A DNA stretch of 38,895 nt from an uncultured Bacilli bacterium (GTDB lineage Bacteria > Bacillota_I > Bacilli_A > RF39 > UBA660): NCBI GenBank assembly GCA_944358875.1, contig CALVRZ010000014.1, forward strand, positions 1-38,895. The letters are read 5' to 3'. Below the pieces are notes generated by a model. That model saw only the letters and a list, made by a program, of their open reading frames with translations, was not told where the DNA came from and did not search any database. A program made the translations under genes and the position numbers. Shown here in pieces: positions 34,866-38,394 of this stretch (positions are counted from its first letter, which is position 1; every line of letters starts with the position of its first letter).

Positions 34866-35222
34866 ATGAATGGTGACTTTTTTCCACAAAATTTAAAATA
34901 CCTACTAGATAATGATATAATAACTGTCAAAACAATTTTAAATTTAACAAATAATAATAGTCCAAGTTTAGTCACCATGTGGAAGAATGGAGAAAGACAA
35001 ATTACAACAAAGGACTTACTAAAAATAGCTAATCATTTAGGATATACAGTTGATGACCTAATAAACAAAGATTTAAGTAAAATTAATGACAACGAAATTA
35101 ATAAAACACAAATATTATTTGATAAGAGTAAAGATATACTATCTGATGATGACAGGGCTACGCTTGAATTCATAATGAAAAAAACAATTGATAATTACGA
35201 AAAAAATAAAAAAAATGAATAA
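34866..35222 (+). CDS. CI/ImmR-like HTH repressor
   Basis: 118 residues: an HTH of the repressor type (VKTILNLTNNNSPSLVTMWKNGERQITTKDLLKIANHLGYTVDDLI) and a charged C-terminal helix (DDRATLEFIMKKTIDNYEK), probably for dimer formation. AAAGGAGG precedes the ATG at 34866. It is followed at once by an ImmA-like metalloprotease, the pairing known from ICEBs1 and many prophages, where the protease cleaves the repressor on induction. Confidence 0.82.
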   Translation: MNGDFFPQNLKYLLDNDIITVKTILNLTNNNSPSLVTMWKNGERQITTKDLLKIANHLGYTVDDLINKDLSKINDNEINKTQILFDKSKDILSDDDRATLEFIMKKTIDNYEKNKKNE

Positions 35223-35256
35223 GTATGCTAGTATAGGTACTAAAAAGGAGTATAAA

Positions 35257-35574
35257 ATGAATTTATTTAATCTAATTAAAGGAGAAGTAAATCAAAAAGA
35301 ATTATTAAACTATTATAACGCAACTATTATATATGAAGAATTACCGCTAAAAATAAATGGTTATGTTTTTAATTATGATGGTATTAATTTTATAGTAGTT
35401 AATAAAAGCTTGTCATATTATAAAAAGAAAAAAACAATTATACATGAACTAGCACACATAGAACTTAGTCAATTAAATCAAATCGATAAAGATTTAGCAT
35501 ATCTTAAAGTCGACAAATACGAAGATGAAGCTGATAAGTATATAAAAATGTTATTAGAATTAATAAAAGAATGA
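35257..35574 (+). CDS. ImmA/IrrE-family metalloprotease
   Basis: 105 residues with the zinc motif HELAHIE (HExxH) and a downstream EDEADKY that can give the third ligand. Upstream strands (ATIIYEELPLKINGYVF, INFIVVNKSLS) match the usual ImmA layout, so the protein is a short but complete version. AAAAGGAG selects ATG 35257; the frame opens 69 bases earlier within the repressor gene. By analogy with ICEBs1 it would cut the CI/ImmR-like repressor and release the element. Confidence 0.85.
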   Translation: MNLFNLIKGEVNQKELLNYYNATIIYEELPLKINGYVFNYDGINFIVVNKSLSYYKKKKTIIHELAHIELSQLNQIDKDLAYLKVDKYEDEADKYIKMLLELIKE

Positions 35575-35613
35575 ACACTAAAATTGTCAAAAATAAAAAA
35601 AAAATAAATCAGG

Positions 35614-35647
35614 TTAAAACTTTATTTTAAGTTTTAATATATATAAT
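35614..35647 (+). promoter_or_regulatory. Inverted repeat and -10 box before the Ltp-like gene
   Basis: A perfect 9-bp repeat TTAAAACTT / AAGTTTTAA with a 6-base loop lies 4 bases before TATAAT (35642-35647). It may be an operator of the Ltp-like gene or a weak terminator after the protease gene. Confidence 0.4.
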
Positions 35648-35671
35648 TTGCGTTAAGGGAGGTGAATGAAT

Positions 35672-36163
35672 ATGAAAGAGGAAAAGAAAAAAATGCCAGT
35701 CTGGTTAATCGTCATTATTATAATAGTTGTTATTGGTATAATTGGATCCTTTGCATCAACTTCAAGTAATGAAGAAAAAAGCAATAATACAAATGAAAGC
35801 GAAACATCTGAACAAATTACTGATGAACAAACTAATGAAATAACAAAAAATGACAGTATTCCTACTGAATATAAAAATGCACTAACTAAAGCAGAAGATT
35901 ATTCGGAGTTAATGCATATGTCTAAACAAGCAATTTATGATCAATTAACGTCTGAATATGGTGAACAATTTTCTGAAGATGCTGCTCAATATGCAATTGA
36001 TAATATGGAGGCAGATTGGAAAGCAAATGCATTAGAAAAAGCTAAAGACTATCAAGAAAATATGAATATGTCAAAAAATGCAATTTATGACCAACTAACT
36101 TCAGAATATGGAGAAAAGTTCACAGCAGAAGAAGCACAATATGCTATTGATAATTTAGAGTAA
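35672..36163 (+). CDS. Ltp-like superinfection-exclusion protein
   Basis: About 163 residues: a basic start, a single N-terminal membrane helix (VWLIVIIIIVVIGIIGSF), a polar linker and two tandem repeats of about 48 residues containing M-x-M-S-K-x-A-I-Y-D-Q-L-T-S-E-Y-G-E and AQYAIDN. These are the repeats of the Ltp family (PF07553), first known from temperate streptococcal phage TP-J34, whose lipoprotein blocks DNA entry of other phages. Here the anchor is a transmembrane helix and not a lipobox. GGGAGG suits ATG 35672 better than 35666. Position next to the repressor module fits a lysogenic-conversion gene. Confidence 0.85.
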   Translation: MKEEKKKMPVWLIVIIIIVVIGIIGSFASTSSNEEKSNNTNESETSEQITDEQTNEITKNDSIPTEYKNALTKAEDYSELMHMSKQAIYDQLTSEYGEQFSEDAAQYAIDNMEADWKANALEKAKDYQENMNMSKNAIYDQLTSEYGEKFTAEEAQYAIDNLE

Positions 36164-36171
36164 TAAAAAAA

Positions 36172-36192
36172 GACTAGCCCACTGCAATGGTA
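36172..36192. repeat. 21-bp direct repeat, copy 1
   Basis: GACTAGCCCACTGCAATGGT plus A, identical to 37125-37145, each preceded by an A run. The two copies flank the MazF-like gene and the plus-strand RNA. Copy 1 has only one arm of the hairpin seen in copy 2. Confidence 0.9.
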
Positions 36193-36210
36193 ACAGAAAG
36201 GAAGTAAAAG

Positions 36211-36975
36211 ATGAGTACGAAAGTAAAAGATATTGAAGAATTAAAACAAAAAGAATTACAAAGATCAGACAGAAAAAAAGCAAAACTACTGCAGGCATTT
36301 GAAAACAATGTTAAAATATCAAATATGAATTTACCAAATAAATACAATTCGTTTGAATCATGGGAATATACTAGAAGTAATAGATTGCTATATGAAATTA
36401 GTCTACCACCAGATAAAAAATATATGAGATATCCACGCGGAACCATAATAAAAGTTGACTTTGGTGTCAATGTTGGTAGTGAATTTTCTGAGCAACATTT
36501 TGCAATAACTTTATCAAAAAGAGATAGTATATATAATAATTGTGTAATAGTTGTCCCATTGACATCTAAAAGACACAAAAACTGTATAAATCTAGATGGT
36601 TTAATAAGCAAAAGCTATTTAGAAACCTTGCAAAAAAAAGTTGATGAATTGCAAAATAGAATTCAAGAAATTGATATAGAAAATTGTGAATTTAATCCCA
36701 ATTATGAAAAAGAAATAAAAAAAATCAAGAAAGTTTTAAGTTACTATAAAACCATTAAAGAAAATCTTTCTTATGCATGTATAGATCAAATAAGAACGAT
36801 AAGCAAATTAAATATTCTTCCCCCAATGAATGAATATGATATGGTAGGTTCATATAAATGTGCTGAAGAAATAATGAATAAAATCGACAAACAGATAGTT
36901 AGGCAATATACTGCGATTGACTTTAGAGAATTTGAAAAATTCTTTGACAATCTAAAAGATGAAAATAATAAATAG
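36211..36975 (+). CDS. MazF/PemK-like protein with coiled-coil insertion
   Basis: 254 residues. The core reads like a MazF/PemK mRNA interferase: YPRGTIIKVDFGVNVGSEF, QHFAITLSKRDS, CVIVVPLTSKRH and, after an insertion, LSYACIDQIRTISKLNI. An approximately 45-residue coiled coil (about 135-185) separates the core strands, and a further helix of 60 residues precedes it. These long forms are found in Bacillota elements. No MazE-like antitoxin lies beside it; the neighbours are the Ltp-like gene and two RNA units. AAAGGAAG gives the ATG. Toxin activity is unproven. Confidence 0.78.
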   Translation: MSTKVKDIEELKQKELQRSDRKKAKLLQAFENNVKISNMNLPNKYNSFESWEYTRSNRLLYEISLPPDKKYMRYPRGTIIKVDFGVNVGSEFSEQHFAITLSKRDSIYNNCVIVVPLTSKRHKNCINLDGLISKSYLETLQKKVDELQNRIQEIDIENCEFNPNYEKEIKKIKKVLSYYKTIKENLSYACIDQIRTISKLNILPPMNEYDMVGSYKCAEEIMNKIDKQIVRQYTAIDFREFEKFFDNLKDENNK

Positions 36976-36992
36976 AAATAGAAACGATAAGG

Positions 36993-37021
36993 TTGACATT
37001 TTACAAATAAAATGATATATT
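36993..37021 (+). promoter_or_regulatory. Strong promoter of the plus-strand small RNA
   Basis: Perfect TTGACA, 17-base spacer, TATATT with a TG two bases before it. Confidence 0.85.
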
Positions 37022-37027
37022 ATATGT

Positions 37028-37115
37028 GACAACTGAAACAGCAATGTTTTTTATGTAGTCATTTGGTCGGCGACGACTTATATTTTATAGCTAGTCAACT
37101 TGACTAGCTTTTTTT
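37028..37115 (+). ncRNA. Candidate small RNA, plus strand (about 88 nt)
   Basis: From the promoter at 36993 to the terminator hairpin GCTAGTCAA-C-TTGACTAGC (37090-37108) with seven T. It holds a hairpin with a GNRA loop (GTCG-GCGA-CGAC, 37066-37077) and the sequence TTTTTTATGTA, complementary to the 5' stem of the opposite RNA. No open frame of more than 10 codons or ribosome binding site is seen. Confidence 0.65.
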
Positions 37116-37117
37116 AT

Positions 37118-37193
37118 AAAAAATGACTAGCCCACTGCAATGGTACTAGTCAGGTACATAAAAAATTCTCCGACACGAGAAAGTCTTTTATGT
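37118..37193 (-). ncRNA. Candidate small RNA, minus strand (about 76 nt)
   Basis: Convergent with the plus RNA and ending 3 bases away. Its 5' part folds into a long hairpin (GTACATAAAA ... TTTTATGTAC, inner stem TTCTC/GAGAA), and its end is a terminator GACTAG ... CTAGTC followed by T6 (37151-37118). No convincing coding frame. Confidence 0.6.
37125..37145. repeat. 21-bp direct repeat, copy 2
   Basis: Identical to 36172-36192. Here it forms the terminator hairpin of the minus-strand RNA, because ctagtc (37146-37151) completes the stem. Confidence 0.9.
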
Positions 37194-37199
37194 ACTCTA

Positions 37200-37228
37200 A
37201 TTATAGCAAAAAAATGAAAAAATGTAAA
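37200..37228 (-). promoter_or_regulatory. Promoter of the minus-strand small RNA
   Basis: TTTACA (37228-37223), 17-base spacer, extended -10 TGcTATAAT (-10 at 37205-37200). Confidence 0.8.
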
Positions 37229-37245
37229 TAATGTAGGCAAAATAA

Positions 37246-38394
37246 ATGGATAAAAAAGTATATGAAAAAACAAGATATCAAAATATTTACAGGCACAAGA
37301 AAAACAAAAATTATATAGTTATGATGAGTAAGCCAGTAAAGACAAGTATTGCCACTGTTGATGGTAAAAAAATAATGAAACTAGAAGACGCCCTTAAAAT
37401 TAGAGACAATCCTAAAATAAAAATGCAAGTGGGTCTTGAAGTCACTTATAAGGAAGACTTTGATAGTTTATGGAATAAGTATATGGATAATTGTAAAAAT
37501 GTTCAAAGACAGTCTTACAATACGATAAGAAGAAAAGAGATCATGTATAACAAATATGCAAAGAATGAATTCAATAAAAAAGTATCTAAAATAACAGAAA
37601 AAAGATATGATATACTTTATAAATAATATGGAGTGTACTGTAAAACAAAAAAATCAAATGATAAAAGAATTAAAAACATTTTTTAATTGGTGTATAAAAG
37701 AAAACTATCTACTCTTTTCTCCCTTAAGGAACATAAAAAAATATAAAGTAGAAAAATCAGAAATGAATTTTTGGACGCCAGAAGAAGTATCAATGTTTTT
37801 AGATACTATAAATAATGATATTAAAAATAATGTAAATGTTGAAACTGCATATAGAACGAAAATATTTACATTGATAAATTTCAGCTTAGGCGATCGTGTC
37901 GGTGAGACTAGAGCACTAACGTTTGATAGTTTTGATGAAAAATTGTAAAAATCAAGCATTCAATAAATTACGATAGAAAAAGTAGTGACTTTTTGTCAGA
38001 TACTAAAAATTATCATTCGCAAAGAGTAATTAATATTACTTCAAAATTGATAGAGGAAATAAAATAATATAAATATTATCTAATAAATTTTTGTAATTAT
38101 TCTGTCAAAGACAATGATTTGATATTTTTTAATTATCAAAATAAAAAGCCATATACAGATGTAACTTTGAGGAAGTATTTTTATAAATACTGTGATAAAG
38201 CAAATGTTACAAAAATCAGAATGTATGATTTAAGACATACTTATGTAGCTACTATGATGTCGGAGGGAAAAGAATTATATCACATAAGTGAAAGAATCGG
38301 ACATAGTGACTACTCTACTACTGTTAATAAATATGGACACTTATCTAATAAAACAAGAAAGGAGATAGCATCAATTACTGACAAGTATATTTAA
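37246..38394 (+). pseudogene. Broken tyrosine recombinase (phage-type integrase)
   Basis: Three overlapping or adjacent fragments together give one integrase of about 380 residues: an AP2/SAM-like N-terminal part (37246-37626), the catalytic start with GDRVGETRALTF containing the first Arg (37607-37948), and the end with YDLRHTYVATMM, IGHSDYSTT and the nucleophile region NKYGHL (38119-38394). There is a frameshift near 37615, a second near 37945, and an in-frame TAA at about 38065. All catalytic residues can be seen, but no single frame is complete, so the element is immobile unless another integrase acts. It points at the tRNA array. A weak RBS precedes ATG 37246. Confidence 0.9.

Follow-up and report, generated by a model that had tools for sequence, protein, structure and literature searches.

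A candidate RNA antitoxin behind a PemK-like gene abuts a conserved, recombinase-linked small RNA in an uncultured Bacilli bacterium

Two structured RNAs that converge between a PemK/MazF-like gene and a broken integrase gene are two separate modules that abut, not one pair. They lie in the window, by which we mean the whole stretch of DNA that was analysed (38,895 nucleotides; contig CALVRZ010000014.1); loci in other genomes are given by their L numbers. On balance, we favour a reading in which two mobile-element modules are independent of each other, one a PemK-like toxin with its RNA antitoxin and the other an sRNA that silences the integrase. Computed here were the folds of the RNAs and how they are conserved, which genes the RNAs are linked to, the MazF fold of the protein and the absence of a strong promoter between sRNA and recombinase; conservation is ranked as the strongest evidence that the observation holds.

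Layout and setting of the locus

The features of the locus were as follows.

36163..36201, plus strand: part of the PemK-like gene leader that duplicates the terminator region of the minus sRNA (direct repeat of 39 nt, shared with 37116-37154 at 87% identity)
36211..36975, plus strand: PemK/MazF-like gene, 254 aa, candidate toxin (PF02452, PHROG 1412, MazF fold)
36993..37021, plus strand: promoter of the plus RNA (TTGACA-17-TATATT; 11/12 consensus, TG before the -10)
37028..37115, plus strand: plus RNA, two GNRA-loop hairpins 29 nt apart and then a terminator; candidate RNA antitoxin (fold z -4.1; linkage to PemK genes; 80% homologue in L022)
37089-37115, plus strand: terminator of the plus RNA, stem 37089-37109 (terminator scan)
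37118..37194, minus strand: minus sRNA, 5' hairpin with inner stem and then a terminator; recombinase-linked family (fold z -5.7; covariation)
37152-37126, minus strand: terminator hairpin of the minus sRNA, then U (seen in the fold)
37200..37228, minus strand: promoter of the minus sRNA (TTTACA-17-TATAAT; 11/12 consensus, TG before the -10)
37246..38394, plus strand: tyrosine integrase, frame broken into 37246-37626, 37607-37948 and 38119-38394 (C-terminal piece PF00589, E 9e-10)

The predicted ends of the two RNAs meet at about 37115/37118, and both promoters, both terminators and this meeting point lie where an earlier, sequence-only reading had placed them. The terminator scan listed the plus terminator alone, and that of the minus RNA is evident from its fold. 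Promoter-like matches in this AT-rich region are overall in no excess over chance (18 against 15.9 ± 5.0 expected). Both transcripts fold far better than their shuffles, and the minus RNA recurs with covariation, as befits two structured RNAs. The integrase, previously called dead, does have its frame broken into three pieces.

The gene order at 34866-38394 is HTH regulator, IrrE-type peptidase, Ltp lipoprotein, PemK and integrase, with tRNA-Phe adjoining, an arrangement that resembles a lysogeny module left by a decayed prophage. Within the window, the end of tRNA-Phe is not duplicated.

The plus RNA and PemK-like genes

Relatives of the PemK-like protein were sought in 193 genomes, phages and viral contigs. 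A scan of the viral contigs with the single PemK sequence gave no match; profile A5 gave 22 loci there. Most PemK-like genes are followed by a structured RNA of ~70-110 nt that has its own promoter and ends in a terminator. By a crude automatic count, in which related loci are not independent and the 169 control ORFs include overlapping and non-genic ones, promoter and terminator follow 28/43 PemK ORFs and 5/169 other ORFs (p 3e-19); for some of the 15 PemK genes scored as lacking them, the -35 box lies within the gene and so outside the counted span. The co-occurrence with MazF-like genes that had been proposed as a test for both RNAs holds strongly for the plus RNA; the minus RNA is mostly found without a MazF-like gene. 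RNA subtypes, assigned by eye, fit the PemK tree with as few changes as possible.

Tandem hairpin units spaced by 27-40 nt are present in several of the PemK-linked RNAs (L122, L159, L123, L114 and L115); in Staphylococcus phage SA13 (L122) the units are ACAAGCCGCTGAAATATTTGCGGCA and ACAAGTCGCTGAAATATTTGCGACA. Some tandem units differ from each other yet keep the stem. Changes on both sides of pairs are seen in subtype B, and covariation is weak in subtype A. In the window, where one GNRA-loop hairpin had been reported, there are two, 29 nt apart and with no repeat of sequence, whereas some relatives have clear repeats. For this plus RNA there is a single close homologue (L022, 80%), in which one of its hairpins is weakened, and the idea of a GNRA hairpin conserved in sequence was rejected on that account.

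The plus-type RNA of L022 is orphaned, its own PemK apparently gone, and Streptococcus suis phage Javan563 (L156) has a second PemK-type RNA without a PemK of its own. This is how retained antidotes would look. At L022, the PemK cassette, with its orphan plus-type RNA and a relic of the sRNA, is flanked by chromosomal gene-end repeats; these resemble the end of typA and perhaps mark an old integration site.

DNA searches were less productive. BLAST searches of phages and plasmids with the region returned short AT-rich or promoter-like pieces alone, and the exact terminator motif had zero matches in viral contigs. A degenerate promoter-plus-stem pattern had 14 matches in genome contigs, several of them in gut Bacilli MAGs and others in Pedobacter, Winogradskyella and Bacteroidales. 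Two Rfam RNAs, DUF3800-VII and skipping-rope, were noted just behind PemK genes (L115 2083-2177; L128 2857-2927). In the region upstream at L053, an intergenic sequence, AAAAGTATGCTAGTATAGGTRCTT, is repeated ahead of successive genes.

The plus RNA might instead be a leader or attenuator with a regulated terminator, acting on the integrase or on whatever gene lies downstream. Its position between PemK and a recombinase in the window, at L048 and L067 and in several phages would suit such a role, as would the strong recombinase-direction promoters, present only at the window, L048 and L067 (all gut-bacterial loci). We consider this unlikely. PemK-linked RNAs often occur without minus RNA or integrase, and an RNA of this kind also accompanies PemK genes that have no recombinase close by (L101, L102, L106, L107, L109, L110 and L111). 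Because the RNA is also found behind PemK genes with no recombinase nearby, it was assigned to PemK; that its subtype tracks the PemK clade likewise argues against an attenuator. The plus RNA is thus a candidate, and on these linkages probably the RNA antidote of the MazF-like toxin.

The PemK-like protein

The protein encoded in the window matches PF02452 (E 4e-8) and PHROG 1412 (E 6e-52), as do all 17 relatives; T118, S119 and K120 are conserved residues. Its AlphaFold model (mean pLDDT 80) has a MazF core to which helices are added at the N terminus and in the centre, and MazF is the best PDB match in Foldseek (TM-score by target 0.74). A profile search of the PDB also led to MazF, and Pfam to PemK_toxin alone; neither placed the protein in the ToxN, CptN or TenpN sequence families. 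No gene for a protein antitoxin of at least 60 aa adjoins the PemK gene of the window, which is preceded by the lipoprotein gene.

MazF being the closest fold, the protein could be a type II toxin that its own extra helices keep in check, or else a protein antitoxin encoded at an unlinked site or by the host; the RNA would then be an unrelated regulator. We give this little credence, since no antitoxin gene for 60 aa or more adjoins in the window and the constant linkage to an RNA and the tandem repeats would be left unexplained.

Structure and conservation of the minus sRNA

Using the region as a DNA query against 291 genomes of the same family, sRNA-like matches were obtained in other genera (L021, L023, L024, L025 and L030). 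The six aligned minus-type RNAs show three elements: a 5' hairpin of ~10 pairs, which starts near +1; an inner stem; and a terminator. Covariance model R1 detected the minus RNA in 31/386 genomes (E <= 0.01) and the refined model R2 in 50/385, the two genome sets being overlapping draws from the family or order.

Over 31 sequences, 23/25 pairs have changes on both sides. In the alignment, 90% of cells were paired, against 37-53% once the partner was slid, and no shuffle matched the observed values; the alignment was fitted to the structure, which favours these pairing figures. With the controls and the two-sided changes, there is little doubt that the conservation of the predicted fold is genuine. 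The covarying pairs include G-U pairs, and the promoter and U-tract are also conserved.

The terminator loops of the sRNA at L040-L068 (for example UGGC, UCCA, UGCC and UGCA) are closed by a mostly conserved U-G pair. This goes beyond the needs of a plain terminator, and the loop is perhaps a contact site.

The minus sRNA and recombinases

At 46/50 loci, picked by RNA score alone, a site-specific recombinase (tyrosine or serine), or a recognisable piece of one, is divergent from the minus sRNA, which bears out the earlier suggestion that the spot is linked to integration. Among the 48 divergent ORFs beside the sRNA, 32 match Phage_integrase and 11 Resolvase/Recombinase; that of L089 has a SAM-like integrase domain. 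One RNA fold thus precedes unrelated tyrosine and serine recombinases. The remaining four loci are L045 (221-aa protein), L047 (no recombinase recognised), and L051 and L056 (no ORF); at L045 the protein that replaces the recombinase beside the sRNA (790-1452) has no Pfam match.

The recombinase start codon typically lies 36-38 bp (~37 bp) from the model start. On the opposite side of the sRNA, a variable gene often ends within ~3 bp of its terminator. Five loci in other families of the class have the same divergent layout of sRNA and recombinase. The recombinase frames are broken in the window and at L021, and the integrase is intact at L041; the window piece is 79% identical to that of L021, and the N-terminal piece of the window 63% identical to L041.

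No promoter in the direction of the recombinase scoring at least 10/12 was found between the sRNA and the start codon in 27 loci; the sRNA promoter itself scores at least 10 in 19 of them. Since no strong promoter intervenes, the recombinase mRNA probably crosses the sRNA gene and so would carry the complement of the sRNA in its 5' leader. From this arrangement, we infer that the minus RNA probably keeps the neighbouring integrase silent.

Pairing between the RNAs and the terminator-region repeat

The two RNAs had also been thought to pair in trans through complementary parts. Short complementary stretches exist, but the predicted duplex in the window (-27.7 kcal/mol) is at the level of shuffles (-26.6 ± 4.1 kcal/mol), and cofolding brought a gain of 0.0. 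At two other loci that hold both RNAs, pairing was also at chance level, making three loci in total. With cofolding and duplex energies at chance, the idea of trans pairing falls. GACTAGC/GCTAGTC arms are in both terminators of the window, as reported, but are not common to both terminators at L048 and L067.

A different pairing is predicted between the minus RNA and the PemK leader at 36163-36201 (duplex -56 kcal/mol against -20 for shuffles); the corresponding pairing at L047 is weaker. The leader repeat of the sRNA terminator region recurs at L067, is diverged or weak in L112 and L047, and is absent at L048. With one copy of the repeat on either side, the PemK-RNA cassette looks to have been inserted at the sRNA terminator, and the leader copy is what makes the toxin leader complementary to the minus sRNA. 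The repeat may be a scar of insertion or a sign of real cross-talk.

On the strength of the repeat and of the leader duplex, the minus sRNA could act mainly in trans on other genes of the element, such as the PemK mRNA leader, and not on the recombinase. This is decidedly improbable, for the recombinase is the constant partner and most sRNA loci have no PemK gene, L048 has no copy in the leader, and the repeat may be an insertion scar. Least credible of all is that the conserved hairpins are DNA sites, an attP core or integrase arm sites as the sequence-only reading had offered, and not an RNA gene: recombinase genes do adjoin the hairpins in nearly all relatives, but the covariation is of the RNA type with G-U pairs included, promoter and U-tract are conserved, the same fold stands beside serine and tyrosine recombinases, and in S. 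pyogenes sRNAs are expressed from the matching position (PMC6431027).

Proposed roles of the two modules

In the two-module reading, a promoter of its own behind the toxin gene would give the plus RNA, which would bind the RNase of MazF fold and neutralise it, as ToxN is neutralised by the RNA antitoxins of type III systems; transcription in this organism, binding of RNA to protein and toxicity are what we infer here. In the other module, the minus sRNA would pair with the leader of the recombinase mRNA, or its transcription would block read-through, and the recombinase would thereby be held off in the integrated state.

The wider proposal is of a widespread prophage class of toxin-antitoxin system, present in phages of Staphylococcus and Streptococcus as well as in gut Bacilli, in which a MazF/PemK-fold RNase is coupled to an RNA antitoxin that is built of tandem hairpins, lies downstream and has its own promoter, and which can adjoin a second conserved sRNA that silences site-specific recombinases of both chemistries; the chances for and against it seem to us about even. 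If it is true, a common phage protein family, filed as orphan or type II MazF or as 'antitoxin mazE-like', has an overlooked RNA partner, and the arrangement of the protein-RNA pair, with the RNA downstream under its own promoter, is new. No paper on PemK with an RNA antitoxin was found in the open-access literature, outside which most subscription journals lie. For the sRNA module, the implication is that a single RNA device may control tyrosine and serine recombinases alike; this would carry an RNA-seq observation made in streptococci over to uncultured gut Bacilli, and to the way in which integrated elements are kept in place.

Comparison with known systems

The convergent RNAs that end side by side recall Fst/par loci, to which the locus had been likened. 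The flavour of an RNA-regulated toxin-antitoxin system was right, but this is not one mutually pairing locus of that type: Fst/par type I was rejected for want of a peptide toxin, of a shared terminator and of trans pairing above chance. No small hydrophobic toxin peptide was found in the plus RNA, the longest reading frame of which has 10 codons, in agreement with the earlier reading.

With type II MazEF/PemIK, the PemK-like protein shares the toxin fold and the Pfam family. It differs in being longer, with extra helices, and in that the window has no adjoining gene for a protein antitoxin of 60 aa or more.

Type III systems (ToxIN, CptIN and TenpIN) likewise combine an RNase of MazF/Kid-like fold with an adjacent structured RNA, and their tandem short repeats closed by a terminator resemble the PemK-linked relatives of the plus RNA. 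They differ in that the toxin is of the ToxN family, whereas here it is of the PemK/MazF family, and in that the RNA lies upstream and is co-transcribed, with a terminator between, whereas here it lies downstream with its own promoter (PMC12373285; PMC4627078). As the pair departs from type III in these two defining features, toxin family and RNA position, it was not filed there; by analogy, we think that the PemK-linked RNA would work like a type III antitoxin. In AbiF-RCd22 of Clostridioides difficile, a prophage protein is neutralised through binding by an RNA of two motifs (PMC12373285); that protein is unrelated to PemK, and its RNA lies upstream of the gene.

For the minus RNA, Rfam searches of the window, at gathering scores and at E up to 10, gave nothing relevant; a ctRNA_pND324 match (20.4 bits against a cut-off of 45, on the other strand) was put down to chance. 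In Streptococcus phages, Rfam RF02589 (Spy779816) lies at the equivalent spot, upstream of the integrase, and model R2 re-finds its sites (L155, E 0.0012; L133, E 0.0019); the window RNA does not reach the RF02589 gathering score, which Streptococcus loci alone match. In S. pyogenes, RNA-seq revealed expressed antisense sRNAs of one family ahead of four prophage integrases (SP119_SR034/071/086/106), with the suggestion that they silence the integrase in lysogens (PMC6431027). These sRNAs, possible members of RF02589, are grouped with it here as one kind. Like them, the minus RNA is divergent from, and just upstream of, an integrase gene, and has a 5' hairpin of the GTAY..AAA / TTT..RTAC type, an inner stem and a terminator; its terminator differs from that of Spy779816, and its family also adjoins serine recombinases. 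It is best filed with the SP119_SR034 / Spy779816 kind, a likeness that may reflect shared ancestry or architecture alone, and it is a new branch of that known kind.
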